64,000 bases of DNA from Heliocidaris erythrogramma (lineage: Eukaryota > Echinodermata > Echinoidea > Camarodonta > Echinometridae). Below, piece by piece: positions 9,730-32,841 of the stretch (positions within the stretch are counted from its first letter, which is position 1; each line of letters starts with the position of its first letter). The stretch is taken from contig CM046853.1 in the NCBI GenBank assembly GCA_025617745.1, positions 4,150,873-4,214,872 of the forward strand. The letters are read 5' to 3'. The position numbers and the translations under genes are program-made. The notes below the pieces were generated by a model. The model was not told the origin of the DNA. It saw only the letters and a list, made by a program, of their open reading frames with translations, and ran no database searches.

Positions 9730-12157
9730 TTATTTTCTAACCACCACAATTAACACTATGATCAGACCCACAACAATGATAACAAGCACAAATATCAATT
9801 GTCTTTTAGTTGACACCTGTACACTCTGGCATGCTTCATTGATCAAATCATTCAGGTCGAGGCAAATGTCGGGGCAGTTGGCACGATTGGTGTTGGTCGA
9901 AACGGATTGTGGTGATCGGCCAGCATCCATCAGAAATGCTCGAAGCTCCTCCCATTGGTCGTCACCTAGCTCTACCTTCTCATCAAGCTTCCCGCCCATC
10001 ATCACCAACCTTGCACACTCGAAGGTCGTCGGCTGCTGCAATTTGAAGGCGCTCATCTGGCTTCGGTACTTTTCGACGGTGTTGAACCTCTCTGCTTGGA
10101 AATCATGAACTAAAACGCAGATTTTTGCACTTCCTGTAATGAGATCAGGAGAATAATGACTTTGATCCACAATCGGCTGTTCAAAATATTACCTTGTTCA
10201 AAGGTAACACTGTGTCAGGGTATTTCAGATGTAAAAAAATTCTGACAAGCCACCCTCCTCCAAGTGTTTTCTATAGACATGCGTAGTTTCCTGGAAATTG
10301 CCAGGCTAAAATTATTGGAAAACGTTATAGAGGCAATTACTTCATTCCTTCATCTTCTTCGGGCCGGTTTAATTCCTTATTATGATATTTATCGCAGTTT
10401 ATATCAACATCATGGATGGACTGTTTCGATAAAGAGCCAAAATGTGCTCAGTCCATCAGATCATGAATAATAATAACCCGAGACCGGTCTCGAGTCCCTA
10501 TTTTTTTTTCCGTTTTCCGCTTTTAAGTTTAGCTCAAAAAATTACCCCGCTATTTTTTGCGCACCTTGCTCGATTGAGCGGTATTTTGAACAATGAACTT
10601 AACATTCATCGCCGTAACCGTAAGAGAATGTGCCCAAAGAGACGTTAAGATGTTGTTGTTTTATGCTCGTATACACTCGTTATACACGTATGTCACAGAC
10701 AAGTATTGAAATTGATATTAACCATTTGGAGATGAATTAATCTATGTTATAACACACGTTTCCCCATGCATAGACCCCAGCCTGGGATATCTTGTGCAAT
10801 ATGGGCGTTCTCAAACAGATTACTATTCCACTTGTATTTCAAGCCAGTATTATGAACTACAGTTTTGATCTTCTATTTTTTGACTTGCAACCTATGTTAG
10901 CTGTGGCAAAAAGTCAAAGTCAGCAATCTATATATAATTTTTGGCAGTGTCAAACGGTTTTATGACGGTTTAACAATTACATGTATTGTATCTTTTTATT
11001 AATGAATTCTTAAACACCAGCGACATGTCACGGCAACAAATCACTCTTTTGTGAGCAAGCCTTTACAGTTGTCCACATTCGTACTAAGAAAAGTTACAAT
11101 AAATTAAATTCTCTGACAAGTTTTCAATGAAACAAAAAAAAAATCATGTTATAGAGAATTCACAGTAAGGCATTTATCATAATATAAATAGTGTGACGTA
11201 AAATAAAATTGCAATTTAAGATGTTCCAGTCGGGAATTATTAAGAAATTACACACGTTTATGCAGTTTGAACCAAAATTAGATGTAAAGAGAATACGAAA
11301 ATAACTGTGGCCGCAGTTGATATTTATGTTCAAAAGTTTAGCTTGTCTAAATCAAATAGCTTGTCTAAAACAAAATTGCAATTTAAGATGTTCCAGTCGC
11401 GACTCGGACTCGGATGTCCAGGACTTGGGACTCGGATGCCAGGACTCGGACTTGGACTCGGACTCGGATGGGATGGACTCGACTACAGCACTGGTTGTAA
11501 TTTTCTATTTTGATTATTGATGGAATACAAAATAGGAGTAAAGGCACCGTAGCGTCTGACGGAAATAGCAACATAATTATCTGCTCGATTCAAATGCTTA
11601 AACCTAAACACACACACACACACACACCCTCACTTGAAATTATTAGTACATGTATCTGAGTTTGATAACTTCCATACCAACAGAAAAAATGTCATATCTG
11701 CATATCTATGTTGACAATTACTTTCCAAAGGATATCAATTTGTTTACATTTTCAAATAACCACGTATAAAGACAATACTTCCCTTGATTAACTTTAGAGA
11801 ATGAATATATTACTGGAAAAGAAAAACATTCTGATATTCTTATTATTATTGAAAAAAATCCTGTAAAATAATTATATCGTTTTATACTAACCGAGAGCCC
11901 TCACTCCATTGCGCAAGAATCTGTTGTAAAGGGCGTCCATAACATCAGTAATGGCGAACCTTCTGTTTTTGATTGAGTGACACAAGATCATGACGTCGAT
12001 GCCTGTGTTTCGAAAACGGAAACCATCGATGTCGTTGTAAGGTAGCTCGAAGTGGCGGACATCGCTGATGACCTCGGTACATTTCAAAAGCAATGCATCG
12101 ATGAAGGCCTGGACGTTAAAGGCCTGAGCAGAAGTACATACCGATACCCTAGGTCTC
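9730..12157 (-). CDS. Tail-anchored membrane protein with unassigned alpha/beta domain (partial)
   Basis: Two coding exons are visible on the minus strand: about 11,892-12,148 or 12,157 (donor G|GTTAGT, phase 1), then 9,730-10,133 (acceptor CATTACAG). Together they encode about 220 residues. Strand-like segments RVSVCTSA, VRHFELP, DVMILCHSI, KICVLVHDF and ARLVMMGGKL alternate with helices. A linker with a Cys-rich patch (CPDICLDLNDLINEAC) follows, and the protein ends in one hydrophobic segment (LIFVLVIIVVGLIIVLIVVV) plus RK, so it is tail-anchored. AATAAA overlaps the 3' flank near 9,722. The first exon with ATG was not found, and the exon start phase differs from the paralogue at 30,669-32,841, so the gene may be incomplete or use another 5' exon. 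Function unknown. The fold resembles TIR or SEFIR signalling modules only by inference. Confidence 0.75.
11205..11399 (+). repeat. 139-bp insertion flanked by 28-bp direct repeats
   Basis: The 28-base segment beginning AAAATTGCAATTTAAGATG occurs exactly at 11,205-11,232 and 11,372-11,399. Between them is a copy of the 9,262-9,384 sequence plus a short duplicated GCTTGTCTAAA. This looks like a copied segment inserted with a long target duplication. Confidence 0.85.
11399..11483. repeat. GGACTC minisatellite
   Basis: Degenerate six-base units (GACTCG, GGACTT, GGATGC) are repeated about fourteen times in the intron of the tail-anchored gene. The Gly/Leu-rich and Asp/Ser-rich open frames across it are artefacts of the repeat. 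Confidence 0.85.
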
Positions 12158-12489
12158 CTAATAGTCTATGATACAAGAAAAATGGGAACAAACATTTAAA
12201 AACGTTGGTTACGGTACCAACCTTGTGTAGGGAAGGTGAGGGAGAAACGTGAGGGAATTTCGACGTGAGATGGACATAGTATCAGAAAACCAAGGGCCTA
12301 CCGATATAAAATGGGACTGGCAATGGTAGTGTAAATGGATGAGGGGCAATGATAAACATGAGGGATGGCACATTTCGACTTGTTTCAAAATGGAGCATTA
12401 GGTTAGGATAGGCCATGATTTACCATAACTTATTAAGAATTTTTTTAAAACCTTATGTGTACAGAAGTACAAAAGCTTTATCTTAATCT
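12158..12489. other. Upstream flank of the tail-anchored gene
   Basis: No first exon matching the MAGNTRYGPILDEANNARK exon of the paralogue was found here. GTGAGGGAGAAACGTGAGGG at about 12,236 is a short purine-rich repeat. Nothing else is recognised. Confidence 0.4.
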
Positions 12490-12493
12490 TTAA

Positions 12494-13090
12494 AGGAGAA
12501 TGAAACCTCCCAAATACATGCATTTTAGTAGAAGCAGAAAAATCAAAGAAGCATATCAGTGAAAGGTTAAAGAAAAACGGACAACTAATTAAAAAGTTAT
12601 GAATATTTAAAATCCTTAAATCGCTAAATGAATGGAGATCTGATATTGGCAATGTCCTCATTATGCTAATAAGATGCTGTGATGTAAATGTACTATACTT
12701 TCCAATTGCCTTATACAAATAATGTTGTAAAAATCCACTTTCCTTTGAATACATCTTAGAAAATTTGATCTCTGTATTATAGGTGGTGTTCATAAATTTA
12801 TTCCTCACAATATATTTCAAGCACAATGTTGATAATCCAATTTTGTTTGTTTAAAAGCTGAAATCTGATAATTTTCTTATTCATTACCTATAAAGAGAGC
12901 ACAAAAACGTCATAGCATCTCATGAGCATAATGAGTATGTTGCCAAATTCATCTAGTGAATTTAGGTGTTTAAAATCTTCATAACTTTTTTTATTCTTTA
13001 TCCGTTTTTTTTTTCAAACTTTCAATCATATGCTTTAAGGATTTTGCTGCTTCTGTTAAAATGCATACAAGTTTGGGGTTTCATTCTCCT
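12494..13090. mobile_element. Kolobok-type foldback MITE, family K2
   Basis: A 597-bp element with termini AGGAGAATGAAACC and GGTTTCATTCTCCT is flanked by TTAA at 12,490-12,493 and 13,091-13,094. Inverted similarity extends at least 50 bp inward (ATGCATTTTA, GAAGCAG and AAAATC are mirrored), so the transcript could fold into one long hairpin. It lies just upstream of the tail-anchored gene's first visible exon. Confidence 0.8.
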
Positions 13091-13263
13091 TTAAAAAGGG
13101 CATTAAACTGAGTTTTTTGAAAGACATAAATTAAGGATTTAAAAAACCCACAGATATTCATGCTGCAAATAATAACTTTAAATATTGGTCATTGACAAGG
13201 ACTATATTATGTATTACCTACTTTAAAATATTTTTAAAGAAAAATAATTTGCCTCATGATACA

Positions 13264-14130
13264 TACAACAATGGCTCTCTTATTGCATCGTCCTAGCATA
13301 ATGTTCAATTCCCCAAAATATATGCTAAAATAAGCTACTTGACAAAACAGCTTTAGCCGGCCTGTGACCAGAGATATTGACATTGACATAATAAATAACA
13401 TTGTAAAGAGCATTGAAGTATTCACATAATGCGCTACATAAATACAATATATTATTATTATTATTATTGGTTAAAATTAACGACAGGATATTCCTTCTTA
13501 TCGATCACCGTGAAAACCGAAGTACAGTTAGCTTTCCAATGACAGGTCAAAAAAGTGGTTTATTTATATGATCTAGTCTTGCTTCATTGAGCAGGGCGTT
13601 TACGGTTTATGCCCAAGCTCAAAATGCCATGTTTAGGCCTAATGTGGATGAGAATCATTTTAAGGGGTCGCTGGGTAAGCGTTACTTGATGATAACATTA
13701 TCAAAATCGTCATTCAGAATGATTCCTGACAAATATTCAGTGGCTATATAACAAAAATTAAAAATAGCAGTTTACCTGATTCATGTTAGTGTTGTAACCG
13801 CTCCTGTCTCTTGATTTCAAAGTAATGACACGGTCAGTTTATAAAACAATGCTTATCAGAATTCAATGTATTCCTATAATTGTATTCCGATGTCTTCTTC
13901 AATTTGTAGCCTTATCAAATCGTGTGTAAAAATCTTGGTATAGATTATTAGATTTAAAGCCTGAATTCTATGTCGATCACAAAGGCATAACGGTTTATGT
14001 TGCGTACACTGAAACATTCGCACATTCATGGGGAATCCCCATTCATGTACCACGTACCCGACTGCTATCTGTTGGTTGACAAGGGTTAAAGTTCACTTTC
14101 AGATACGTCAGGGGCAAAATCCAGGATTTG
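13264..14130 (+). repeat. Direct duplication, copy A
   Basis: This runs from ATACAACAATGGCTCTCTTA to about CACTTTCAGATACGTCAGG and matches copy B at 14,359-15,190 over nearly its whole length. Copy A carries an extra LINE-tail insertion at about 13,350-13,470 that B lacks, so that insertion came after the duplication or was lost from B. No coding exon is evident in either copy. Confidence 0.85.
13350..13470 (+). mobile_element. CR1/L2-type tail insertion with ATT microsatellite
   Basis: The stretch GCGCTACATAAATACAATAT followed by repeated ATT is the usual 3' terminus of CR1/L2-like LINEs or SINEs that use the same tail. Copy B of the duplication shows the site without it. Confidence 0.65.
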
Positions 14131-14227
14131 TATTTTAATTCGCGTTTTATAAGCATACAGTGTTACATATTTTTCCTATTCAAGTGATTTTAAAAAGGAA
14201 TTCCCCGAGATACAAATTGAATATTTG

Positions 14228-14275
14228 GTGATGATGATAATGATTATAATGATGATGATGATGATGATGATGACA
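14228..14275. repeat. GAT microsatellite
   Basis: GATGATGATAATGATTATAA leads into pure GAT units, between the two duplicated blocks. Confidence 0.85.
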
Positions 14276-14358
14276 ATACTGGTAATAGTAATAATATCAA
14301 TTAAAAGGGGATCTGTAGATAACGACAGACCACTTAATAATGACACGGGTATATCATT

Positions 14359-15190
14359 ATACAACAATGACTCTCTTATTGCATCGTCCTAGCATAGTGT
14401 TCAATTTCCCCAAATTTGTGCGAAAATAAGCTACTTGACAAAATACCTTTCAAACCAATGAAACTGATTGAAATTAACGACAGGATGTTCTTTCTTATCG
14501 ATCACCGTGAAAACCGAAGTACAGTTAGCTTTCCAATGACAGGTCAAAAAGTGGAACATTTATGCAACCCTCATTTATGTGATCTAGATAGTCTTGCTTT
14601 ATTACTCACATCTTTGTGGTTTTAAAGGATTGAGCAGGACGTTTCCAGTTTATGCCCAAGCTCAAAATGCAATGTAGGCCTACTGTTGATGAAAATCATT
14701 TTTAAGGGGTCGCTGGGTAAGTGTTAATTGATGATGAAATTATCAAAAATCGTCATTCAAAATGATTCCTGACAAACATCCAGTGGCTATGTAAAAAAGA
14801 AAACACACACACATAAAGCAAAACAAATGCATGTTAGTGTTGTAACCGCTCCTGTCTCTTGATTGCAAATTATTGATACGGTCAGTTTACAAAACAATGC
14901 TTATCAGAATTCAATGTATTCCTATAATTGTATTCCGATGTCTTCTTCAATATTATTGTAGCCTTATCAAATTGTGTGTAAAAATCTTGGTATAGATTAT
15001 TAGATTTATAGCCTGAATTCTATGTCGATCACAAAGGCATAACGGGGTTTTTTTGCGTACATTGAAAATTTCGCACATTCATGGGGGAATCCCCATTCAT
15101 GTACCACGTACCCGACTGCTATATGTTGGTTGACAAGGGTTAAATTTCACTTTCGTAATTGACAGGGGCGAAGTTCACTTTCAGATTTTT
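14359..15190 (+). repeat. Direct duplication, copy B
   Basis: This is the partner of copy A. Shared landmarks include GACAGGTCAAAAAGTGG, GTGTTGTAACCGCTCCTGTC and GGGGAATCCCCATTCATG. The two copies differ by scattered substitutions and short indels, as in an old duplication. Confidence 0.85.
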
Positions 15191-15594
15191 TTTCCAGTTT
15201 TTTTTCCAGATATGTTTCAAAGCGCTGTATTTATTACCTTAATAAGCCAAGAATACTTTCAAATGAAAGTCCTAATTATACAAATAAAATGAATTATGAT
15301 TAGAATTCTATTTAATAAGAAGAAGTACAAGTCTAAGAGGTTAGCATATTCCAGGTGTTCAGTCAGTGGAATTACACAAATAATTTCAAAGTATTTTAAA
15401 ATTTAAATGATGTATTGGCGGAGCCCTTATAAAAAGTCGGTGTATCGCGTGGTATTCATCTTTTGAAGTGAAAATGTAATAGACGGAAGGAGAAAGAAAA
15501 ACTACATTTTTTGTCCGAAAGATTACTTTAAATATCATAATTGATAGGATTGAAGTAAATTGAATATCATAAAGAAATGTGAGAAAATTACAAT

Positions 15595-15665
15595 GCTCCG
15601 ACCGGGATTCGAACCCAGGACCCTGGATTACATGACCAGTGCTCTACCAACTGAGCTATCCGGGC
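15595..15665 (-). tRNA. tRNA-Thr(TGT)-like sequence, copy 1 (probably SINE-derived)
   Basis: On the minus strand this 71-nt cloverleaf-like sequence begins GCCCGGATAGCTCAGTTGG and ends with a TTCGAATC T-loop. The D arm (GCTC/GAGC) and T arm pair well. The anticodon loop reads CATGTAA, giving TGT, but position 33 is A where real tRNAs have T, and the pair closing the anticodon loop is T-T. The acceptor stem has mismatches and no CCA is encoded. A pseudo-tRNA or the head of a tRNA-derived SINE is more likely than a working tRNA-Thr gene. Confidence 0.55.
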
Positions 15666-15933
15666 TCCCGTCGAAGCAAAGTAACAATCTCACATATAGC
15701 CCCTCTCTTTCCATCGAGCGTAGGGGGTACATCCATACCAGTTCCATGCGTACGCTATATAATGGCCTACCAATGAGACAGGTCTTCCCTCTAAAGTCGG
15801 GCAAATCCATGCCAACGAATTTCTATAGAGGACAATTTAAATTCGTAATAAAATATTAAATATCATAATTGATTGATAGGATTGAAGTAAATTGAATTGA
15901 ATATAACATAAAGAAATGTGAGAAAATTACAAT

Positions 15934-16004
15934 GCCCCGACCAGGATTCGAACCCGGGACCCTGGATTACATGACCAGTGCTCTACCAACTGAGCTATCC
16001 GGGC
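15934..16004 (-). tRNA. tRNA-Thr(TGT)-like sequence, copy 2
   Basis: This is nearly identical to copy 1. The acceptor end (TCGGGGC) pairs better with GCCCGGA, leaving one mismatch at the fifth pair. The same A33 and T-T closing pair are present, so the unusual loop predates the duplication. Confidence 0.55.
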
Positions 16005-16244
16005 TCCCGTCGAAGCAAAGTAACAATCTCACATATAGCCCCTCTCTTTCCATCGAGCGTAGGGGGTACATCCATACCAATTCCATGCGTACGCTATATA
16101 ATGGCCTACCAATGAGACAAGTCAATCCTATCAATTATGATATTTAATTACGAATTTAAATTGTCCTCTATAGAAATTCGTTGGCATGGATTTGCCCGAC
16201 TTTAGAGGGAAGACCCAATTCTTTTTGAATTGATAACCTTTTTT

Positions 16245-16335
16245 TTGTCAGAGAATTACGGAGGACAGCTGGACCCCATAAAATCTGGTACTCTCCCCCC
16301 TCCCCCCAAACTGAGCGACTCTTGGAGGCCGGCTG
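16245..16335 (+). mobile_element. Fragment of the poly-G GGCGGAT element family
   Basis: GTCAGAGAATTACGGAGGAC, CTGGACCCCATAAA and ACTGAGCGACTCTTGGAGG match the internal part of the elements at 29,377-29,582 and 36,985-37,150. Both termini are missing. Confidence 0.55.
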
Positions 16336-16436
16336 GAGATTTTTTTTTTCACAACCACTACCATGATGTTTGATGTAATATCACGTCATCCCATTTGTTT
16401 TACATGTTACTCAAAGAAAGTTACATGTAATAATTA

Positions 16437-17912
16437 TAATATAGGATTTCTCGTTCAAATTCGTAAGCTGGCCGCACGAATTCATTTGCATTCAAATTCA
16501 CCGATTCTGCCACCGTAGCTGTGTTTTATCATTCAAATTTGTTTTTTAGCATTCGATTTCATAAAACTGTAATTCAAAAACATTTTGTTTGCATTCGAAT
16601 TAAAACGTGTTTCGTCTTCGGAGAATTTTCATTCAAATTAAAGCGAGACGATTCGCGATTACGTAATAATGCCTTCCGTGAATTCAAATTCATTTCTTTG
16701 CATACAACTTCACACGCTTTGCAGACAAAATAAACACGTTAATCATGTTAATCTCACCCAATCTTCATATCAATCCGCTAGCTTCGTTCCGTGCTATATT
16801 CATTTTAAATTATACGGTATAGTGAGTAACAAACATTTCACTTGCTCCCACTAGGGTTGTATACCCACTAAATCAACACTCTTTAGCAACTGAACGATCA
16901 TATATAATTTTTTTTATACCTGGTCACATCACCGACATGTAGAATTAGCAAAGTGTGTGGTGTGGGACATTACATGCTGGGACATCGCTTTATTTTCATG
17001 TTTGTTTATTTGTTCATTTTTTTTTTGAAAATTTATTCTGCGGTCATGATCTCTTTTGGGCCATTTATATTTGTGTACATTATATGTAGTCTTTCTACCA
17101 CAGTCATAATCACAATCACCATCCTAATCGTGGGGTGGGGGGGGGGGGGCATGTCCCCCGTCCCCCGCCTGTTGATACCATGACCCTTAGGTGGTATGCA
17201 AGGAGTTTTCTTAAACACATCACCGGATATAAGCCACTTCGGAGATGCAATCTGAGCATGAGCAGATAAAGGTCATCTGTACCAAATTCTAAAACCCACT
17301 GACACTAATATTCGATATGTGCTCATGAATGTCATGTAATCATTATTCAATTATGCACTAATGGTGCATTCCATGATATCCAGGTGGAAGTATTATTTTT
17401 AAAGGGGGAAACAAAAGCTATTCATGAGGCACCTCTATCACTCCCAGAGTTATTTTTCTGAAGTACACATAAAGGGACCCTCCATGTCTAAAATATCTGT
17501 GGATATTTGGGGTCATTTGTACCATGCGCTAACCCCGAACTGGCTTATTGATAAAGAATAAAGCTCACTTTTGTTAGATGAGAAAAATGTGCATATACCA
17601 TATATTTGTAATGATAGGCGAATTTGAATGAAAACTTTGTTATGTTGAATGATCAGGTGTGAAATTGAATGATCCGGACGTCCGCTTTGCCAGCGTTGAC
17701 GAATTTGAATGCAAACTGCGCATTTGTAACCGGTTGTTAAATTGAATGATACAAGTGCAAATTCCATTGACCAAAGAAGTAATTCAAATGAACGAAGTGC
17801 CATTTTGAATGACATTCTCAAGCCTACATCGGTATTTCGCGAATTTGAATGACTCATGTATTAAAACGAATGAAAAACTTACGAAGTTGGCCGAGAAAAC
17901 CTATATTAATAA
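16437..17912. mobile_element. DNA element with ATTCAAATTCG subterminal repeats
   Basis: The left part (16,455-16,700) repeats ATTCAAATTC about ten times. The right part (17,615-17,870) repeats its reverse (GAATTTGAATG). The outer ends are mirrored: TATAGGATTTCTCG and TTCGTAAG on the left against CTTACGAAGTTGG and CGAGAAAACCTATA on the right. Clustered, oppositely oriented short motifs near both ends are what subterminal transposase binding sites look like. No transposase frame is seen. Confidence 0.65.
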
Positions 17913-17948
17913 TGCATAAAATGCAGCATGTACTGATCTTCCTCTGTA

Positions 17949-19834
17949 ATGACAAGTAAGCTTTCTAGTGTTCTAAAATGTAAAGATTTCATGTCCCATA
18001 ATCTGTACTCGCTTGGTCGCTACCCTCTTTTGCATATTAATAAGGCCTACGTAACCCAGCGTTTTTTATGCATTAAATACAGTTTTCGAAGCACTCGGCA
18101 ACGTTTTAATGCTTTCTCTCCTGTATCGCAGGGCCAAGTTCAGAGAGTTATCAAAGAGTCTCGATCAACTTCCTGTCGACTCGATCCAATCCCTACTTGG
18201 CTACTTAAGAACTGCATCAATGAGTTAACTCCTGTTATTACATCCATTGTCAATGCTTCCCTTGTTGATGGCCATTTCCCTGATTCTCTCAAGAATGCTC
18301 ATGTAACTCCACTCTTGAAGTCACCGAAGCTGAGTCCTGATGACCTAAAGAGCTATAGACCGGTCTCTAATCTTCAGTTCCTGGGAAAGATTGTTGAGAG
18401 ACTTGTGTTAAAACAAATTCAGGAATACTTATCTGAGCACAATCTATATTCTGAGATGCAGTCAGGATACCGACCCCATCATAGTTGCGAAACTGCCCTG
18501 TTAAAAGTCTCAAACGATATTCTTCTCTCTCTGGACAAAGGCGATGAAGCGATTCTGTTGCTGTTGGATTATTCTGCGGCCTTTGACACCGTGAGCCATG
18601 ATGCTCTTCTGAGCCGTTTGCATGATAGATTTGGACTTAAAGACTCTGCCCTGGAGTGGTTTCGTTCCTATCTCACTAACAGAACCCAGTCTGTTGTTGT
18701 TAGTGATTTTGAGTCACGGGTCAGCTCTTCTAGCTTCGGAGTACCTCAAGGGTCTGTGATCGGCCCGTTAGCATTTACACTCTTCTCATCTCCATTAGAG
18801 GATGTCATCAAACACCATGACATAAAGTGTATGACTTATGCTGATGACACTCAAATTTACCTTGTATTGAGAAAAGAAGACCAATCTCCTGCTCTACAAA
18901 GACTCAGTGCATGTTTCTTAGATATTAAGAGTTGGTCAATACAGAATGGTTTAAAGTTGAATGAAAGTAAAACAGAATGTCTACACTTTGTAAGCAGACA
19001 CAGGACTAGTAGTTCGATTAGTGCTATTTCTTTGGACGATACTCCTGTACAATGTTATATAGGTGCTAGAAACCTGGGTGTCATATTTGACATTAATCTA
19101 TCTTTGAAGACTCACGTGAATAATGTTTGCAGATCAGCCTCGTATGCTCTGCATAAAATTGGCAGCATCCGGCAATTTCTTACAAAAGAGACTACCCAGA
19201 GACTCGTTCAGGCACTTGTTATGTCTCGCATTGACTTTTGCAACAGTCTTCTGTATGGTCTTCCGGATGCACAAATCAACAAACTGCAGAGAGTACAAAA
19301 TTCAGCTGCTAGGCTTATCGCTAAGCGTCGTTCACGTGAGTCCGTTACCCCACTGCTGAGGGAGCTTCATATGCTAAGAGTCCGGGAACGAATAAACTTT
19401 AAGATCCTCTTGCTTACCTTCAAATGTTTGAGAAACTCAGCTCCGGCCTATCTTCAACAGTTAATAACAGAATACTCGCCTTCTCGCAATTTGCGCTCAA
19501 GCAAGAAATCACTCTTAAAAGTTCCTCCCACCAATACCCAGTCTTACGGTTCTCGATCTTTTCGTTCAGCATCCCCTCAGCTCTGGAACAATCTACCTCA
19601 ATGCATAAAACAAGCAGACTCAACTGAAAGATTCAAATCCATGTTAAAAACGTATCTGTTCATCAAATAGTTGTATGCCTAATTAGCATATCTAGCTCTC
19701 TCAACCTTTTACTAATATATTTTGTACGTCTGAAACTGTTCCTTTCTTTCTCCTCTTTCCTTTTCTTAAGCGCTTAGAGACATTTTTATGTGATAAGCGC
19801 TATATAAATATTGTAAATTATTATTATTATTAGA
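17949..19834 (+). mobile_element. CR1/L2-type LINE, 5'-truncated with intact RT frame
   Basis: An open frame of 573 codons (17,949-19,670) carries a non-LTR reverse transcriptase. It shows SYRPVSNLQFLGKIVERLV, the LLLLDYSAAFDTVSHDAL box, GVPQGSVIGPL and the catalytic MTYADDTQIYL, and ends with the typical SFRSASPQLWNNLP block. RT similarity begins around residue 55, and the upstream endonuclease domain is absent, so the copy is 5'-truncated. The 3' UTR ends GATAAGCGCTATATAAATAT plus an ATT microsatellite at 19,816-19,833, the hallmark tail of this LINE group. The frame has no stop or frameshift, which suggests a fairly recent insertion. Confidence 0.88.
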
Positions 19835-20458
19835 GACCCCTTGATAATTTTTAAAGACCCTATATTAGGGCAACCACCGCCTCATATTCTTGCCGAGCGA
19901 GGTGCCCGATTATGTTTTGTGCGAAATGTCATATCTCGACGAATTATAGGACTTCTGCTGAAACTTTTCCACTTTTACCACTACAGTCCATTTCTGAAAA
20001 TGTTCCGGTGTATCTTTCGGATTTGGGAACTTATGAAAAGACGTTCCACTGCTCAATTTCCAACTTCTATTCCGGCATCCAACGCTTGACAGTACATCAT
20101 GATTGCTGCTTCCAATGTACAGTTAACCACCTGACCACTGTCGTCTGCCCCGCATTGCGCATGCGAATGATTTCTTTTTCACGCCGATTGTCCGCACCTA
20201 CGTCATTCGTTGCGGGGGGGGGGGGGTGTCTACTGCAAATTGCGGCCCCCATGTGCAGCAGACGACAGGCGAAAGACGTGTGTGCGTGAGTGTGGGCGTG
20301 TAGCCGTATGTCCGAGGACATTTTCGGAAATCATGAGAACAATGGTCCTCGGAAGCCGGAACGTCGAACAATGAATTTGTGCCTTATTCCGTCGACTGTC
20401 CGAGGACGGAGGAACAATAGAGGAACAATACTTGTCCTGGGAAATAAAGCAAAACAAG

Positions 20459-22370: not shown

Positions 22371-23678
22371 CACTGTTAAAACATGTATTAAAAAACTACG
22401 GATTAAAAAAATGTTGATTAAAAATCGCTCAACATTGGTTATAAAATGAATGTTGGTTAAAAATGACTTTTAATCTTGCGTGGGTTAAAAATATTGTTGA
22501 TTAAAATTATTGTTTTTATTCTTGTTGGTTACTTTGTAACCAACATTGATTAAAAACAGTGTTCTCTGCTTTCCCGCCAAACTGATAGTGCTAACTGTCA
22601 AGACACTTTATCGTTTTGTTGGTTAAAAGTTTGATCAAAGTTGATTATTAATCAACTTTGATCAAACTTTTAACCAACTAAATTAAAAATACCAATCGCG
22701 TGACCGAACAGCGCATGCGCATATGGATTTGGAACAAATTCGCTGCGCACAAATCTATCACAGAAATTGTTTGCGATAAAAATGGAAGGCATTGTCATTC
22801 AAGTCGCTGAATGAGTGGGGACTTTCAAAGAGTTTGTCGGCGTGTTTGAAGGTGAGAAACTATTATTCATATATGTGATTGTTGTCCAGCTTAATCTTGG
22901 GAAGAAATAGATCTACAGTGTGCTCTTTCTTTCTAATTTAAACGTCTTGGGAGCAAGTTCGACCTGCTCGATCTGGACTAGACCTGGCTAAGCCAGGCCC
23001 ACCGGTAGATTTACTGACTGCGCCTATGGTAGCGAGGAGGCGACGCCGGCGGTATGGCGGTGTGTTCAACTTCGCGCATGTCCATATTTCGCGGACAGGG
23101 CAATATGACAAAAACTGAAACTAGAACAGTTTTTTGAGAAAAAGATATAAGCACCAATGTAGGCGTAGGCGTAGTCTACCGGTGGGCCTGGCTTAGTCAA
23201 GTCTAGTCCAGGTCTGAGAAGGTCGAACTTACCAAACCGCTGAAAGTAGATCACTGAGTAGATCTATTTCGTTATAAGGCTAGCTAGACAACAATTACAG
23301 ATATGAAAAGAGTTTCTCCGGGGAGTTTCTCATCAAATAAATCTAACCAACAAATGGTTAAACATTTAACCAACAATTTGTTTAAGTTTAATCAACACCA
23401 TTTTAACCAATGTTGAGCAAAATATGATTAACCAACAAATGGTTAAACATTTAACCAACAATATGTTTTAGTTTAATCAACACCAATTTAACCAACGTTG
23501 AGCAAAATACGATTAACCAACAAATGATTAAAACTTTTAATCGACCACAGGTTAAACTTTAATCAACAGGCCGTTGATTAAAGTTTTAACCTACAAATGT
23601 GTGGTTCACCTGGTAACCCTCGGTTGATTAAAATTTTAACCAACAAGATTAAAAATTTTAATCAACGTTCTAACAGTG
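22371..23678. mobile_element. CACTGTTA element, copy 1 (1,308 bp)
   Basis: The ends CACTGTTAAAAC and TAACAGTG are inverted. The interior is dense in TTAACCAACA and GTTGATTAAA units on both sides. A second inverted pair lies near the middle (GACTAGACCTGGCTAAGCCA at about 22,976 and its reverse at about 23,180-23,215). It is nearly identical to 38,732-39,977. It carries a perfect 61-bp palindrome at 22,618-22,678 that the other copy lacks. The 62-codon open frame conserved in both copies is most simply a by-product of their identity. Confidence 0.85.
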
Positions 23679-24349
23679 TGGACGAATGGTTGCGTTCTAA
23701 TCAACGCGACGCGATGTGGCGCTACCCACCCTTTCAGTACACATGGTACAAGCCCTCACGACGTGCGTGATGTTCTATAAACTATAACCAGATTCCAACA
23801 GTTTGGAGAATGTCTCGTGCATCTCTCGCGAAAGCAGTGAAGTTCGTCCGATCGTTTCTTGACTTAATCTCGAACTGTTCGCGTACTTCCTGAGAACAAT
23901 TTACTTCGCGAAAGAAGCAAACGCAAACTTTCACGTCGAGGCCCACTCTTAATTCGCCTACCGTTCGCGACGATTAATTTGCGAATGTAGCGAAGTATTC
24001 CTGAACTATTCGCGAGCTACACACGAACCAAATCCGAATCTTGCACGAACATTTGGCGAAGGTTTTGCTCACATGACACTCTCACGGCGTTCGTGCGAAG
24101 TTCTCACGAACGTTTGCCGCATGTTTGGCGGCAAATCCGCACTACGTGACGTCTAGCCTAAACTAAGCGCATGGCCGAGGTGTCTGACTTCATATTGCGA
24201 CTAAACAGCGAACTCTTCAAGAAGAGACCGATCAACTCAAGACAGCTATCAACTCACGTTCGCATTTTAGTCGTGATGTGGACTGGCCATAGTTCGACAA
24301 CGGTACACACGAAATTCGCACAGACGTTGTTTACTTATAGAGCATTTTA

Positions 24350-24610
24350 GGGGGCTAAGCGCTGTCGAAGGGCACTTTGGGTTTTCATTTCTGGGGGTCT
24401 CACACCCCTTTTCCGGACGGACAATTTTGTCAGTTTTTGTATTTTTGGAATGTACATCATGGCTCCTCCTTCTGACAATATTTGGTCCCTGGGCTTTTTT
24501 AGGGGCCGTCTGACACCCCATCCCGACGGAAATTTTTGTCAGTTTTTTAGTGTTTTGTAATGTCCAGTCATACTGCTTTGTACTGACAAAGTTTGGTGCA
24601 TGGAGGAGAT
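24350..24610 (+). repeat. Two diverged ~115-bp tandem units
   Basis: Both units contain the pattern CACACCCC...GACGGA...TTTTTGTCAGTTTTT...TGTAATGT(A)C(A), followed by CTGACAA and TTTGGT. The first lies at about 24,385-24,495 and the second at about 24,505-24,600. Confidence 0.55.
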
Positions 24611-25164
24611 GGGGTGAAATCGACCCAACTTTGGGGTCTCTTTTTTGGGGCTCTGGGGGCTAAACCCGGCGGTTACATTCAGGCTGACAACCTTTTTGTC
24701 GATGACTTAAATGGTCTAAGCAACTTTAAGGGGTCAAATGTTATGGGTAAAATGGGTTGACTATTTCGGGCAGGCTCCCAGACTATTGTGAGAACTCCGC
24801 ACAAACTGAGCAAGAATGGTTTACGGCTCCATTGTCCCGACACATTCCGAGAAAAACCTCTCCGAATGTTGGACTTTGCCATTTCTTCGACAGCCACATC
24901 CTTCGCGAATCGTTCGCGTGCCCCGTGATCGGCAAATGATACATAATTTTTGTAGTCAATTTGCACAGCATAGCCATTCCAATTTTGACAGCATTATTTG
25001 GGAGCAAGTTTTATTGAATTTCTCTGAATACTTTTCATAAAAAATGGCTCTGAATAGTAATGAGATTTTTCACTTTTTAAAAAACTCAAGGCCACAAAAT
25101 CTGTGTGTATCAGTAATCAAATCAGAACACAATATTGCTATCGTGTGTTGCAGCTGTCATTTCC

Positions 25165-25406
25165 GGGTCCGCTCGCTATTTATAGAAAATCGCTATTCGT
25201 TTAACACGCATTATGAATAGCGGTCCTTATGAATAGTTAGAATAGTTATGAATGGAGGGCCTTATGAATAGCAAGGTAATTTGTTTATGGTTTGCTCGCT
25301 ATTTAGAAGGACCGCTATTCATTTAGTCACGCGTTATGGACAGCGGTCCCTATATGAATAAGTGGTCCTTATGAATAGCGGTCCTCATGACTAGCGAGGT
25401 TAACCC
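25165..25406. mobile_element. MITE rich in ATTCATAAGGACCGC, copy 1
   Basis: The ends GGTCCGCTCGCTATT and CTAGCGAGGTTAACCC are mirrored in the opposite-oriented copy at 59,430-59,668. The body consists largely of alternating TATGAATAGCGGTCCT and reverse units, so it is a multi-hairpin MITE. Confidence 0.75.
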
Positions 25407-26400
25407 GTCATTTCTGCCAACCTTTTTGCTGCCCAGGGTTATTAATGATTCATGACTCTGGGTTAGAAAGGTGTTCTGGAATTTCAGCTGCAATGTTCAA
25501 TAATGCCAATTGTTATTATGTCAATGCCAATTATTTACTGATACACACAGATTTTTAAAAGTTAAATATCTAGTTAACATTCAGAGCAATATTTTAAGAA
25601 AAGTATTCAGAGAAGTGTCATGAAACTGCTACCCATAAATTTTCCATCATTTAACTTTACAGTGTAAAAACCTCAGTCTGATACGATGTATAATTTTTTA
25701 GTTATTAATGATCAGAAGTGTCCTAGTATATATAATTGCCCTGTGTCAGTTAAATTACACAAAAGTTAACAATAAATAAAACAACAGTTGGAGAGATGAA
25801 ATATTAAGAAAGTTCATCTTTCCAATTATATGCAGTAAGTTGTACCTAAGAAGAGATATGATTTGATTTATTTCTGCATTTTTCCAAATATACAAAGCAT
25901 AATTGATATACAATAAATGAACGAAACATAGTAACACAATACATGATAATATAATCAGCAATAAAAAGAATTATACTTTGACATAACAAATTATAGAAAT
26001 CAAACTAAAGAAAAACAAAGGTTTGATGAGGAAAAATGCAGGAGGTTTCCATCATAAGCATATAGCTTGACTGGGATGGGAGCGTCGAGAAGATTTTGTA
26101 CGATTTTTGGAAATTGTAATGGTTTAGTAATTTAAGAAAAAAGCACAGAAAAAAGGAAGAAAAAAGAAAAAAATACATCTGCAGTTTCGGGCGTACGGAA
26201 GTAAAAGTAGAAGTGTGTGCACGTGAGTGCATAAGTGTAGAGGTGTGTGTATGTGCATCTTGGTTGATCGATTGCTTTATTATGTTGGGTGTGTACTGAA
26301 GAAGTAGTTCAACCCTTTTTTTCATAATGAAGGTATCAATATCTTACTAAAACCCTGAATAATTAATAGTTGGGGTTGACCAAGAGTTAATTCTTTTTTC
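25407..26400. other. AT-rich intergenic, nothing recognised
   Basis: No gene is seen. Frames on the minus strand are AT-driven, and the one at 26,005-26,325 derives from purine and CA/TG-rich sequence. Confidence 0.45.
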
Positions 26401-26416
26401 CAGTGGCATTTTTGTT

Positions 26417-26724
26417 AAGTTAGATTAGATTAGATAGGTGTACTTTAATATTTAAATAATAAATATTTTTTAATCGATGTTTTAAAAGAGTAAATTGAGG
26501 AACATTGATTTAGCCATTGTGGTAGGGCGCTCCAGACATCCGGACCATGGTGCCTGATTGACTTTTGTGCTAAAATAATTCTGGGATTTTCTAAATGATA
26601 ATCTACGGAGTGACGAGTAGGATATGCATGTATATTTGAATTCAAGTTGAATATGTTACAAAATAACGAAGGGAGTTGCTTAAATGTGAATTGTTCACCC
26701 ACCAATAGGGAACGTGAGCTGGGA

Positions 26725-26761
<37 letters not shown>

Positions 26762-28935
26762 ATGAAAGTACATAAACATTCCTGTTTGAAAAGCATGTAT
26801 ATCCTGTATCCTTAATGTTTTTAGACGCTTAAATAAAGGATCAGTGCGAGAAAAATAAGTAGAATTAGTTACAATGCGTAATGCCTTTTTTGAAGTAGTA
26901 ATATAGAATTTAATTTAGTTACACAGCAATTACCCCAAAACAATGTTGCAGTACATTATGTGAGATAGAATCAAGGAATTATATTCAGTTATTAAGTGTT
27001 GTACCCTGCATGATAGCAGAAAGTGGTAAAAATTACGTGATATTTACGTCGTGGTTTTCGTCTTTTTTACGTCATGTAATTACGTCAATAAGACGACAAC
27101 TTGCACCAACGCAAGACGTCAAGAGGACGTCTCATTTTGACGTCAACTGTACACTGTAAAAACTGAAGTGCTGTATATAGCACTTTTTGAGGGCATGCAT
27201 AGTGCTATTGAATGCACACAGCGTGCTATTTCAGCACTTTCACGGAAGCTGGACCGGCTCCTTAAACTGCTAAACATTCATTAAAAATGATTTGGGCGAG
27301 CTTCGAACCAGGGTTCGCTGATCGAGAATTGCTGGCATTACCGCTAGACTAACTCACATTGTACGATTTAGAGCAGATCATATTGTTACATAGTGAATTT
27401 ACGACACCACATAGTTCATGTTATCTACTTGACTCCCATGAATAAACTGCATTGCAAGAAGCATTCGTTAGTCCATCGGTAACATCAGCGCCTCTCGATC
27501 AGCGGAACCTGGTTCGAGGCTCGCCACGGTCACATTTTTTTTTGGCTGGTAAATTAGCACACTACAAGTGCTATAAACAGCATTTCAGGTGCAGTCACTA
27601 TACATGCCCCTAAAAGAAGCACTTTAGTTTTTACAGTGTACAAGACGTAGAGATGACGTCAAAATAAGACGTCCTCTTGACGTCTTGCGTTGGTGCAAGT
27701 TGTCGTCTTATTGACGTAATTACAGGACGTAAAAAAGACGAAAACCACCACGTAAATATCACGTCATTTTTTAACACTTTCTGCTATCAGGGTAGTTTGT
27801 AAAGAATTCCGATGTTTCTGGATATTGATGTATGAATGTTACGTGTGTGTTCTGCCCAGGTTAAATTTGAGTCAATTGTAACTCCTAAAAATTTTGTTTT
27901 GTTTTTCTACCAGAGGTAATCCATCAATTAGTATATTACCATCTACATTCTGTGCGTTTGCCTGTCTAAACTGAATAAAATTAGTTTTTATTAATATTGA
28001 GAGCCAATTTATTACATTTAAACCATAAAGATATGTTTTTTAACTCAGAATTAAGCCTATTTATAAGTACATTTGAATCATGGTGAGAATAAAGTATACT
28101 AGTGTCGTCAGCAAACATAACGAAATTCAAGGATAAAGAAGAATTAATTATATCGTTTACATAAATAATAAATAATAATGGACCCAAGATTGATCCCTGT
28201 GGTACGCCACATTTTATATATTGTCTTTGGGAATTATAAGATTGTAAATTAACATATTATTGTCGGTTATGTAGATAATCTTTGAACCAAGATAAAGCTT
28301 GTCCTCTAACACCATAATTATTTAGTCTATATAATATTCCATGATTAATTGCGTCAAATACTTTCGATAAATCCATGAATATGCCTATAGTATGTTCCTT
28401 TTTTGCAAATGATTATATAATTTTGTCACACATGTGTAAAACAGCATAATCAGTAGAGTGTCCTGGTTTAAAACCAATTTGATTAGGGATCAATAAATTA
28501 TTTATATTCATAAAATTATATAATCGTTTATATATTTTTCTAGGATTTTAGAGATATTGGGTAATATAGATATTGGCCTATAATTACTCATTAATGATGA
28601 ATCATCCTTTTTAAACACAGGGATTACTTTTGCAACTTTGAGAGAGTTAGGGCATTTACCGTTTAATAGTGACAAATTAAAAATATGAGTTAAAGGGGTA
28701 GCAACGTAGTTAATAATTTGTTTCAATAAATAAACACTTATACCATTATGTCCATTAGATTTACTCGACTTAAGTTGTCCAACAATATTTAATATTTCCT
28801 GATTATAAGTTGGATTAAGAAATAAAGAATTTTCACAAGGGGGGATAAAAACTTGGAAAATTGTGCGTTACCAGCAACAATATTAGAGACTAAGTTCTGA
28901 CCTATATTAATAAAATAATTATTAGATAATCTCCC
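26417..28935 (-). mobile_element. CR1-like LINE, antisense, broken, split by an insertion
   Basis: On the minus strand the RT domain begins near 28,935. It is recognisable as KVAKVIPVFKKDD, SNYRPISILPNISKILEKYI (28,530-28,680), then MGPLLFIIYVNDIINSS and FVMFADDTSILYSHH (28,000-28,190). It resumes beyond the insertion with HHGPDVWSALPQW and a C-terminal KTSIKKYLLFKY before a stop at 26,445. The 3' tail is a TCTAA repeat at about 26,419-26,436. It is 5'-truncated, with several frame breaks in the stretches between the open parts. The foldback element at 27,005-27,791 separates the FADD half from the C-terminus. Confidence 0.82.
27005..27791. mobile_element. TA-flanked composite foldback element with tRNA-like core, copy 1
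   Basis: The outer arms of ~140 bp (CCCTGATAGCAGAAAGTG, TTTACGTCGTGGTTTTCGTC and CTTGACGTCTTGCGTTGG are landmarks) are inverted at both ends and flanked by TA. Inside is a second inverted unit, 27,149-27,641, with perfect ends GTACACTGTAAAAACT and its reverse. The inner unit holds two tRNA-like modules with A-box (TAGTCTAGCGG) and B-box (GGTTCGAAGCTC) sequences. They point away from each other: about 27,294-27,354 on minus and 27,466-27,526 on plus. No protein is encoded. It is inserted in the antisense LINE. The second copy is at 34,073-35,005. Confidence 0.82.
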
Positions 28936-29290
28936 TTACCAAAGAACACAAACTTATCCAGGTCGACCGATTGTTTCTAGCATAGGCTCACTTACAGAAC
29001 CTATGTCGACGTACATTGATAGCTGTCTTAAACCAGAATTGGTACACGTTGATAGTTATGTAAAGGACATCACATATTTTCTTAATCTACTTCCTCCCAC
29101 AATCCATCCTTGCTGGTCAGTGATTGGTCACTAGTCTGTACACCAACATCCCCCATCGGGATGGTATAGAAAGCATGAGAAGCTTCCTTACCAAGCATGC
29201 ACCTATAAGGACACTAATATCGATGATCTGACTAGTTTAGCGGAATTTGTACTAAAACACAAATTACACATGTGTTTCGTGTTTTGATGG
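28936..29290 (+). mobile_element. Penelope-like retroelement fragment, broken
   Basis: Translated pieces read PGRPIVSSIGSLTEPMSTYI, SYVKDITYFLNLL and SLYTNIPHRDGIESMRSFL. These are the GRPIVS...ID...SYVKD...SLYTNIPH landmarks of Penelope-family reverse transcriptases. The fragment is short and broken. Its left border coincides with the truncated 5' end of the antisense LINE, so the LINE probably landed in it. Confidence 0.8.
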
Positions 29291-29376
29291 AAAATTCTTC
29301 CTGCAGAAACAAGGTTGTCAAGAACAACCTTTGTTTGAAAGGTATGCATAAAATTTGCCTACATTACCGAAGCGCA

Positions 29377-29582
29377 TTGGCGGATCCAGGGGGGGGGGGG
29401 CACTTCCGGCCCGTGCCCCCCCCCCCCTTTTTGGAAGAAAAGTATGCATTTTGACCATAGACGATCCGCCATTTTCTCGATTGTGCCCCCCTCCCTTAGA
29501 ATGAAGACCTTTTTTTTTTCTTTGCTTGTCAGGGAATTATGGAGGGAAACTGGACCCCATGCCCCCCCCCCCCCCCCCCCTA
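29377..29582 (+). mobile_element. Poly-G GGCGGAT element
   Basis: Begins GCATTGGCGGATCCAGG, followed by a G run, a C run and TTGGAAGAAAAGTATGCATT. The latter part (AATTATGGAGGGAAACTGG) matches the other family members. It is the opposite-strand relative of 42,660-42,862. Confidence 0.65.
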
Positions 29583-29596
29583 GCTATAGCAGGGGT

Positions 29597-29674
29597 AATG
29601 TTGGAGCGCCTTGAGCACCTTATTACGAGGTGGATATGAGCGCTATAAAAATACCCAATATTATTATTATTACA
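29597..29674 (+). mobile_element. L2-type tail fragment with ATT repeat
   Basis: GGAGCGCCTTGAGCACCTTA followed by GAGCGCTATAAAAATACCCA and ATT units is a diagnostic L2-like LINE/SINE 3' end. No RT frame is attached. Confidence 0.75.
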
Positions 29675-30110
29675 GTCAAATCGTTCAAACCTCAGCCTTT
29701 TCAAATGTGTGCAAAGAAAAATGTTTTACATCGTAACCATTTCAAAGTCTTTTGTAATATACTTATATACAATCATGATCATGACTATAAAAATATGATT
29801 GTGAAGTTAGAGGAATTGGGATGTGACTCGACAAATCTGTGAAATATATGTGATATCCTTATGTACACGAATCCCTCTGATATGAACATGAAATACTCAA
29901 AAGTAGCGAAACTGATTGAAATTCAAACGCTGAAGTTGAGATATTTGCATGAAAATGTATACCACTAAGTATGATGAAAACAAAAGAATTTGTAGAAATT
30001 ATTTCTATGAAACATCCAGAAGTTATTTACCTGTAACAGTTTCGATGTCTATGATTTACACCTTTATATAAGACATGTACTGGCTGACTAAAGCCAGGTG
30101 CCAGTTTATG
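29675..30110. other. Intergenic, possible further retroelement remains
   Basis: A plus-strand frame at 29,684-29,842 (KSFKPQPFQMCAKKNVLHRN...) has no recognisable domain. It may be decayed retroelement sequence from the neighbouring insertions. Confidence 0.35.
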
Positions 30111-30114
30111 ATAA

Positions 30115-30375
30115 CAATATTAATAATAATAATAATATAGTAATAACTTTGTTTACCCATGGCAAGCCTCTTCATCATCAATGATGTTCTTCCTGAGGGT
30201 CCTGCAATTATTATTACCCCAGCAATTGCCAGGTACTCATTAACACCTGGGTTGAGAGGGACAACTGTGGGTAAAACATCTTGTCCAAGGATGTAAGCAC
30301 CCAGCGAGGATAGAGCCCAGGACCTCTCGTAGAAGAGTCCAGAGCCTTCACCAATATACCACAGTGCTCCCATGT
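30115..30375 (-). mobile_element. SINE-like element with ATT tail
   Basis: Read on the minus strand: GGTGAAGGCTCTGGACTC, CTGGGTGCTTACATCCTTGG, then GGGTAATAATAATTGCAGG and a terminal ATT run (about 30,118-30,140). The open frame across it is an accident of the repeat. The ATT tail suggests mobilisation by a CR1/L2-type LINE. Confidence 0.5.
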
Positions 30376-30668
30376 TTTTCAATGAATTTGTCTTGTATTC
30401 TATAGGCAAGAAATGTGGACTAGGACTAAATATATATTATGTTCTTCTTTGAGTTATATGGAAGTAAGCACGTATACGTATTTGGGTCCATGGCTACATG
30501 GAGTGATAACTTGGGCAAGAAAAAGCAGGGGAAATAAAAGATAATGTCAACAATATGTATGATTTGTAGACTATACTAAATTGGTGTTAAAGTTCAAACA
30601 GTTGACTTATTGATAATTTGGTAACTGTGCAGTTACTGGGCCTAGTCATATTAGCAAGCAGTTGATGT

Positions 30669-32841
30669 TTAGTGTATATCTGTAGAATTTGGTGTCAGGT
30701 CAGCTGGGATGGGCGAAATAGTTGCAGGGGGAGGAGAAGTTTTCTCAGTGGATGTTGTAGAATTCACTGTGGCGCCAGTGATGGTTGTAGGAGGAGAAGT
30801 TATCTCAGTTGTTTTCACGTTAAGAATTGTGAAATATGTTGTCAGGTCGGTTGTTACAGATGGAACAGTTGTCAAAGGAGAGGTTCCTATGGAAGAGACC
30901 TGTGTACCAGTCTTTGAAGGGATAGTAGTTATAGGATGCAATGTAGTCGATGTTTGGGGGATGGTAGTGGTAGCTGCAGGCAAAGACGTAGTCACTACCA
31001 CACTGAAATATATTACACCTGCCAGAAACAAGAAGAAAAGAGTTAACGCAAGAAGCAATACAAACACCGAGAATTTGTTATTTTTCAGGGACCTTGTATA
31101 TCCAGTGTTGGAATTCTGCCTGTTCTCAGCAGCGTTCTGAAGGAACCCTGTCAAGTCATCCCAGTTGCTTTCTTGTAGCTCTACTGGTCCTTCAAGCTTC
31201 CCACACATCATGACAAGGTCAGCATTCTTGAAAGTTGTCCATTGCTTATTCTTTAAAGATGTCATCTCCATCCTGTACTTGTCAGGGCTGCTCAACTGTT
31301 TTTCTGGAGGGAAGTCGTGCACTATCACACACACCATTTGTTTGCCTAAATAGAAGACAAGGTGACAAATGAAAATTCAGACAACCTCATGCGATATCCA
31401 CCCTCCTGAAAAAAATCATTACTGTCATCACCCTATAATCAATGCCATAATAAGAGCCCATATTTCTTAAATTAATCCTACCTGAAATTGTGCTTATATA
31501 GACCAGATGAATAACAAAATGTGGATTGTAATAATATTATATACATAACATTTGCATATACATGTAGTAACTGAATCATCCTTCCGATGCCAGTGAATTA
31601 TTCAGTTTCTTTGCTTGGGATTAAGTTCACCTCAGAACATATGATCCTGTATGACTACGACGATGATCATTATAAAAATAATTGAATTGATAAGGAATAT
31701 TATGAGTTGTATTAGGAGTTGTTCATGTTATCTCGATTTGATTTAATTTGTTGGGTATAAAATGGAATGGTAGGAGCTTGCACATATTACTTTTTGCAAT
31801 AAAAAAAAAACACTATCACTTTGTACTTTATCCTTGTTGCAGTTGTTCGACATTGACGAATTAAATATATTTCACCTGAAGAAATTTGGGGACCGTGCAT
31901 TCTCATCAGTGGCTCCACGGCTCTGGAATTCGATTCCGCATGATCTCCAAAACATGACTGGACTTGATCATTTTAAATCAGGCCTCAAAACTTACCTATT
32001 TCAGCAAGTGTGTGACAAGGAACTTTTTTATGGAGCAAGCCCCTTTGAATGTTTTTTAACAGATATATGGGGCTATACAAGTGCTGTGCATCATCATCAT
32101 CATTGACGAAAAATATGTATCAAAATACAAATATCTATTCTTCGAGAATATAACGATTTTGCCTTGCTAACACACCTAATATTTTGGCAGCGTTGGGCAA
32201 GAATTTTTGATAGAGAGCGTCCGTAACATCAGTGATGGAACATCTCCGATTGTCGATAGAATGGCACAGGATCATTACGTCCATCCCCTTCCCTTTCAAT
32301 GAGAAATGATCGATGTTGTTGTAGGGAAGTTCGAAATACTGAACATCGAGATGTGGAAGTCTGCTGATAAGCTCGTCGATGAATCCATCCACGTTATGTG
32401 GAAGAGCAGAAGTACATACATACACCCTGCATGGCTACCGGAGAGAAATAGAATAGCATAAATAAGCAACATCCATTCCCTCAAATATGAATTTATAAAA
32501 CGTAAGTAGAAGGAAAAGTAAAATAAACTACCAACGACGGCTACACCTTTCCGGATGTAGGCTAAATGACCTAGGATTTACAGCAAATACCTATCTACAG
32601 TTCAGATTTGCGCATAAAACTTGATCGTTATGTTCTTCTACATTGACACAAAGGAACTTACAATATCCCTTACACCCCACCCCTTTCTCTCTTTCACTTG
32701 TCAGTCTCCCTCTCTATCCCCCTCTATATATTTCTTTGTCTGCTCCATATCCAAATATGACACAATGATGATGGTTTTGCCTACCTTTCTTGCATTGTTC
32801 GCCTCGTCCAAAATTGGACCATATCTCGTATTTCCGGCCAT
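30669..32841 (-). CDS. Membrane protein: unassigned alpha/beta domain, TM and Thr/Ser-rich stalk
   Basis: Three exons join in frame: 32,785-32,841 (MAGNTRYGPILDEANNARK, donor AAG|GTAGGC), 32,176-32,434 (acceptor CCGGTAG, donor G|GTGTGT, phase 1) and 30,669-31,345 (acceptor ATTTAG). The total is 330 residues. Residues 20 to about 180 form the alpha/beta domain shared with the gene at 9,730-12,157: RVYVCTSA, VQYFELPYNNID, DVMILCHSI, NRR.SITDV.DALY, VCVIVHDF, NADLVMMCGKL. Residues 197-223 are one hydrophobic span. Residues 224-330 are rich in Thr, Ser and Pro, as in O-glycosylated stalks, and include NST sites. There is no signal peptide, so the domain is predicted cytosolic and the stalk outside. 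Function unknown, possibly a signalling adaptor or receptor. The short first exon is the least certain part. Confidence 0.8.
31834..32110 (+). mobile_element. CR1/L2-like LINE 3' fragment in intron 2 of the stalked gene
   Basis: The frame reads KKFGDRAFSSVAPRLWNSIP and TGLDHFKSGLKTYLFQQ, the conserved C-terminal block of CR1/L2-type ORF2. It ends in an ATC repeat (about 32,087-32,104). It lies antisense within the intron at 31,346-32,175, 66 bases from the nearest exon. Confidence 0.82.

Follow-up and report, generated by a model that had tools for sequence, protein, structure and literature searches.

What kind of protein is encoded by two minus-strand genes that share a domain without a family name is the question raised by the window, the stretch of 64,000 nucleotides of the Heliocidaris erythrogramma genome analysed here (C1:4150873-4214872). 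Gene A (12165-9730) and gene B (32841-30669) both encode a domain of ~160 amino acids followed by a predicted membrane segment. The preliminary description of this pair recorded a real observation and understated it; the claim is strong at the level of the family, moderate for the fold and weak for the function. As a tentative choice, somewhat short of an even chance, A and B would belong to a large sea-urchin family of membrane-tethered signalling domains, acting likeliest in innate immunity or cell death. The parts of the two genes are as follows.

11892..12165, minus strand: gene A domain exon 1, from sequence and genome search; upstream first exon not resolved
10134..11891, minus strand: gene A phase-1 intron, GTTAGT...TTACAG, 1758 bases, read by hand
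9730..10133, minus strand: gene A domain exon 2, with linker, C-terminal membrane segment and stop
about 9795-9739, minus strand: gene A predicted C-terminal membrane segment (hydropathy)
32785..32841, minus strand: gene B proposed first coding exon, ATG to phase-0 donor GTAGGC, 19 amino acids, MAGNTRYGPILDEANNARK; sequence reading only
32176..32434, minus strand: gene B domain exon 1, coding from strand 1 up to the helix that precedes strand 4, with LPYN, CHSI, NRR and TDV
31346..32175, minus strand: gene B phase-1 intron, GT-AG, 830 bases
30669..31345, minus strand: gene B domain exon 2, with VIVHDF and CGKL, membrane segment, tail and stop
about 31067-31011, minus strand: gene B predicted membrane segment (hydropathy)

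A phase-1 intron divides the domain at an identical position in the two genes, with exons, frames and intron as first described. The phase-1 position of the earlier split-point reading holds, whereas its ALG followed by GSAK does not: the split codon is a single glycine, lying just before the fourth predicted strand, and the joined proteins read ...RALGSAKICV and ...KILGKQMVCV. The two domains are 51% identical, and this likeness is not chance, since a genome search with the B domain recovers exon 1 of A at E 2.4e-23 and exon 2 at 1.7e-12. Both genes carry the signature CHS..NR..TDV..G..V.VI.HDF together with the phase-1 intron before the fourth strand. The two exons of A join to 225 amino acids, first exon not included. 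A further coding exon must lie upstream, since no ATG precedes the domain in exon 1 and the reading frame meets a stop directly upstream; when 12.2-16 kb was scanned mechanically, seven short ATG-to-donor stretches came up, four sharing a single donor, and none is convincing. The exons of B join to 330 amino acids, of which the first (32841-32785) is proposed without backing from the paralogues; by inspection the proposed N-terminus has no signal peptide.

A tblastn search with the B domain covered the same genome, 1.06 Gb in 26 contigs; 150 of 155 candidates were scored, and matches were sorted into exon 1 and exon 2 by query range. At E<=0.01 there were 124 exon-level matches, 77 to exon 1 and 47 to exon 2, and a divergent member used as query gave 48 exon-1 matches, six of them new (two on C12, three on C11 and one on C2). 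At least 83 exon-1 places are therefore present, on the 10 contigs C1, C2, C5, C8, C9, C11, C12, C16, C20 and C21, and the pair is part of a larger undescribed family, as had been suspected, although one much bigger than the pair. The places are mostly clustered, with 17 at C5:6.96-7.22 Mb, 16 at C1:78.05-78.50 Mb, eight at C1:53.24-53.36 Mb and eight at C20:13.56-13.80 Mb. The figure of 83 is a lower bound for places, while the number of genes is perhaps inflated by equal-scoring copies (e.g., C1:78.112 and 78.480 Mb, C20:13.597 and 13.687 Mb), and unmerged haplotypes may be included. Some of the equal-scoring pairs in the C1:78.05-78.50 Mb cluster lie on opposite strands near the contig end, perhaps marking a large inverted duplication or unmerged haplotypes.

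Domain rows were assembled for 27 members (the two window genes and 25 from 53 loci), and 22 of these entered alignment A1. A GT-AG phase-1 intron occurs at the same point in 26 of the 27, 25 being found by script (G|GT...AG|G) and that of gene A by hand; the intron of one row, L009, was not resolved. The intron point is common even to rows with 32-36% identity to B. The ratio of nonsynonymous to synonymous substitution (dN/dS; Nei-Gojobori, 26 rows, whole-domain pairs, which are not independent) was taken from the 48 pairs, out of 325, whose dS is finite and exceeds 0.05; its median is 0.28 and no pair is above 1, so that by sequence the members look like constrained coding genes rather than chance frames. 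A divergent subfamily, in which LIHS or LLHS replaces LCHS, is formed by L048 (C2:24.16 Mb) and L049-L051 (C8, C11); by inspection, L048 has a further C-terminal part of ~110 amino acids where the membrane segment would be expected, with no convincing Pfam match. The sole member found on C9, L052 (28.40 Mb), has no membrane segment before the first stop and is perhaps a conserved old gene.

A relative is also encoded by a bacterium. Two short motifs were scanned against a collection covering 84,980 species of bacteria and archaea, a procedure that detects close relatives only. Of the 61 stretches matched, one encodes a relative: it lies on a 5,569,560-base scaffold of Endozoicomonas elysicola DSM 22380, and the protein is 41% identical across residues 4-138 (E 9e-27). 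Its gene is an uninterrupted, intronless open reading frame of 259 amino acids (L062:3842-4621), and the protein is 38-41% identical to the animal family (hhalign 99.9%); its best Pfam match, DUF5729 at 0.024, is below the cut-off of that family. With the bacterial domain as query, only one of 293 genomes of the order and one of 37 of the family gave a match, in both cases E. elysicola itself. No match to the bacterial protein was found in plasmids and none to the B domain in phages, and two scans of viral contigs, one of them with the bacterial protein, gave no relative. In an unrooted tree the bacterial protein pairs with L052 (89/92, not starred) on a long branch.

The bacterial copy probably arose by horizontal transfer, which would most simply have run from animal to bacterium because a single, patchy bacterial copy stands against a large, intron-bearing animal family; one bacterial row in an unrooted tree cannot decide the direction. 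E. elysicola is described as isolated from a sea slug and as reported from fish epitheliocystis (PMC12491435). A precedent for a host-type gene in the Endozoicomonadaceae is Ca. Endonucleobacter, for which inhibitors of apoptosis gained from the host are described (PMC11521996). That case involves another protein, and its direction was shown by phylogeny. The gene has a GC content of 38.2% (29.6% at third codon positions, GC3), compared with GC/GC3 of 47.5/50.8 and 51.1/52.6 for two neighbours, one with a tRNA-binding domain and the other permease-like by reading. A third neighbour of 1152 amino acids (L062:4932-8390, minus strand), with no Pfam match at E<=0.5, is also low (40.5/35.9), so the low GC marks the region rather than the gene of the relative.

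Comparison with known families gave no name, in agreement with the preliminary description. Pfam-A (models to 2025) contained no convincing match, the best being 0.041 in one of 22 members, and the best values elsewhere were 0.013 in NCBIfam (1/22), 0.0034 in PADLOC (1/22), 0.017 in PHROGs (3/22) and 0.024 among PDB sequences. These isolated weak matches are to unrelated families and were taken as chance, and none is a confident match to a well-known family. Since nothing in Pfam-A matches, standard annotation would leave the family unnamed. The titles and abstract openings found in the literature do not describe such a family, which is not a claim of its absence from print.

The fold was approached with an AlphaFold2 model of B, built on the two window rows (pLDDT, the predicted local distance difference score, 69.8; pTM, the predicted template-modelling score, 0.72). 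Its order, E-H-E-E-H-E-H-(H)-E-H, suggests a five-strand sheet of the flavodoxin/TIR/small-GTPase type with strands alternating with helices. The best 50 Foldseek rows comprise 21 flavodoxin-type, 11 receptor, 13 Rho/Rac/ROP and three lumazine synthase chains, one CENP-M and one unnamed protein, with query template-modelling (TM) scores of 0.28-0.55; one receptor entry is titled as a flavodoxin fusion, and the other 10 are presumably such fusions. The flavodoxin rows, from E 2.8e-4, have only 9-20% identity and a TM of 0.55 at most, and no Pfam flavodoxin match accompanies them. A BFVD fold search gave diffuse matches (best 3.0e-4). Because the strand order is common to flavodoxins, TIR domains and GTPases that lack beta2, only a fold class is supported.

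The likeness to TIR or SEFIR modules proposed earlier is accordingly supported for the predicted alternating alpha/beta topology and not for membership. The domain could be a divergent TIR-type signalling domain working by self-assembly or as a nucleotide-consuming enzyme, a reading favoured by the shared topology, by the occurrence of both groups as membrane proteins and by the numerous TIR genes of this genome (116 matches, many in open frames of ~900 amino acids, which we take to be as in sea-urchin TLRs). TIR-STING is, moreover, the top Foldseek match (E 8.3e-4, TM 0.49, root-mean-square deviation 9.1) of a second, weaker model that includes the bacterial protein, but no TIR is present among the best 50 rows of the better B model. 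The TIR (PF01582) and SEFIR models of Pfam match none of 22 members at E<=5, in a search whose HMMER filters drop most matches above 0.1; SEFIR, presumably PF08357, was judged by this search only, the comparison sets from the same genome being TIR, caspase and Ras. Profile comparison of the family with these sets by hhalign gave probabilities of 0.14% for TIR (five rows), which is noise, 0.16% for caspase (four) and 0.25% for Ras (seven). The BB-loop-type motif of TIR domains, R[DN]xxPG, occurs in none of 28 rows (the bacterium and L009 included), and no glutamate is found among the 30 best conserved positions. A TIR identity is thus improbable.

A degenerate small GTPase resembling CENP-M, in which a Ras/Rho fold that has lost its P-loop, switch I and beta2 serves as a membrane-tethered binding scaffold, is a minority possibility that deserves to be taken seriously, and it is compatible with the preferred reading of a membrane-tethered signalling domain, which leaves fold ancestry open. 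CENP-M is described as being without switch I and beta2 (PMC4080450), and this loss gives it the five-strand order predicted for the family. Besides the 13 Rho/Rac/ROP chains, CENP-M itself (4wau, TM 0.52/0.53) is among the best 50 rows and has the second-best query TM of those listed, although flavodoxins, with the same strand order, rank higher. Against RhoA, Rac1 and seven Ras-type proteins from the same genome, the family profile scored 20.4 (P 0.019), above the reversed alignment (15.1) and every one of 60 column shuffles (median 12.8, maximum 18.8), but at an hhalign probability of only 2.4%; the scores for TIR and caspase, 11.8 and 12.5, have no null of their own. Restricting the set to RhoA and Rac1 gave a probability of 2.0%, and restricting it to the Ras rows 0.25%. 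The alignment pairs DVMILCHSI...ITDV with DVILMCFSI...LENI, a weak local likeness in the third strand and next helix, and the score is a hint of kinship to GTPases, no more. Despite a likeness by eye, CENP-M is at noise against the family (0.1-0.2%). Positive controls reached 99.9% for the bacterial relative and 98.7% for the divergent subfamily, whereas a Ras/CENP-M control also gave 0.1%, missing a published kinship, so hhalign cannot exclude distant relatives. No P-loop (GxxxxGK[ST]) occurs in the 28 rows, an NKxD-like motif is found once and out of place, DxxG-like motifs lie at scattered places in five rows, and Pfam gives no match to the small GTPase (PF00071) or CENP-M (PF11111) models. 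The family further differs in its own conserved site, its membrane anchor and its many copies, CENP-M being a single locus in this genome (C5 at 29.03 Mb).

Conservation points to where the domain may work. Over the 28 rows, polar-type residues (here including G, P, C and Y) have a mean conservation of 2.84 in the C-terminal strand zones (permutation p 1e-4), compared with 1.83 in the N-terminal zones and 1.90 in the rest of the domain. The 30 best conserved positions include 18 residues of this type, and the C-terminal zones hold 12 of them against an expectation of 4.4. H58, S59, T68, Y75 and G87 are identical in 28/28 rows, the bacterium included. At the predicted C-terminal edge of the B domain are S9, P37-Y38-N39, H58-S59, N62-R63-R64, H96-D97 and G135, and in the model C57, T68 and D69 are nearby. 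The C-terminal edge of the sheet is the usual location of the working site in such folds. These residues are the main ground for regarding the domain as ligand-binding or catalytic, and we infer from the model that this edge forms a ligand or active site; such conservation fits a kept site better than the dead one of a pseudo-GTPase.

The same residues allow a caspase-like or other hydrolase fold to be considered, with H58 at the end of strand 3 and H96-D97 at the end of strand 4 as the catalytic site. In the model the His and the His-Asp pair are at the ends of two middle strands, as are the His and Cys of caspases, and the matches of the weaker model include a GDSL esterase and PatB. CHSI...GK..VCVIAHDF was first read as a pseudo-caspase version of SHG...QACRG, and this candidate was rejected: Peptidase_C14 (PF00656) has no Pfam match in 22 members, the caspase set reached only 0.16% by hhalign, neither [ST]HG nor QACxG occurs in 28 rows and the best 50 rows of the B model include no caspase. 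A hydrolase of this kind is highly improbable.

The anchor was predicted in A and B by hydropathy, as the preliminary description had it, with values of 3.92 and 3.02 after the domain against a threshold of 1.6. The protein of A ends a few residues after the segment and looks tail-anchored, as do L006 and L024. In B an S/T/P-rich tail (about 107 amino acids, 57% S/T/P) continues past the segment, so the product is likely N-in/C-out with a mucin-like outer tail; a mucin-like tail is also present in L005 and several membrane stretches in L037. Among 22 other family tails, read to the first stop, eight have a segment above the threshold, and by hydropathy and inspection tails and anchors are more variable than the domain core.

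Each member of the family would thus consist of one Rossmann/flavodoxin-type domain of five strands, most likely cytosolic, which in A, B and part of the other members is followed by an anchor tethering it to the membrane. The domain would most likely bind, and perhaps act on, a small ligand at the conserved C-terminal edge, or a conserved partner there, and signal from the membrane, whether as enzyme, sensor or scaffold. The likeliest setting would be innate immune or cell-death signalling, on account of the clustered expansion, the copy in an animal-associated bacterium and the abundant TIR genes of the genome. An immune role is inferred on these grounds, and one in host-microbe signalling is plausible.

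Several observations count against this interpretation. Fourteen of the 22 other tails have no segment above the threshold (one is just under it), and a membrane anchor may not be general in the family; eight of these 14 tails are shorter than 20 amino acids and may be spliced on. The C-terminal stretch of the E. elysicola protein is moderately hydrophobic, at 1.39 under the threshold. Confidence in the B model is moderate, two of the five models scoring 46 and 39, and the bacterial protein with both window rows was modelled weakly (pLDDT 57.8, pTM 0.54). The site test uses the strand ends of the first (B) model, and six of the 18 best conserved polar-type residues are outside the C-terminal zones. 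In dN/dS, from whole-domain pairs only, the diversification that recognition genes usually show is not apparent.

The finding of purifying selection only also favours a lineage-specific family of membrane proteins that would serve outside immunity (gamete, epithelium or trafficking), its bacterial copy being incidental. By inference, however, a large, clustered family with a copy retained by an animal-associated bacterium is more typical of genes of host-microbe conflict, and the non-immune explanation is doubtful, though far from negligible. A bolder form of the immune reading is unlikely: a new membrane-tethered enzymatic or ligand-sensing class with a His/His-Asp site, which would have expanded beside the TLRs to form an innate immune arm and been acquired by an Endozoicomonas as a means to act on the same host pathway. 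Echinoderm immunity has TLR, NLR and SRCR genes among its arms, and an immune module of the kind preferred here would be an extra one beside them. The bacterial copy offers a handle, since what Endozoicomonas gains from it would point to the pathway, and mutating the conserved site would put the question to the test.

The remainder of the window contains elements of other kinds. Between genes A and B is a retrotransposon, with an open frame of 577 amino acids at 17937-19670 (plus strand) carrying a reverse transcriptase domain (RVT_1, E 7.8e-33), and further reverse transcriptase-like pieces are seen by inspection at 27981-28256 and 28508-28867 (minus strand). Open frames of 440 and 149 amino acids at 45974-47296 and 48157-48606 (minus strand) have no Pfam match at E<=0.01. 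A THAP domain exon is located at 6176-6421 (plus strand; E 5.9e-7).

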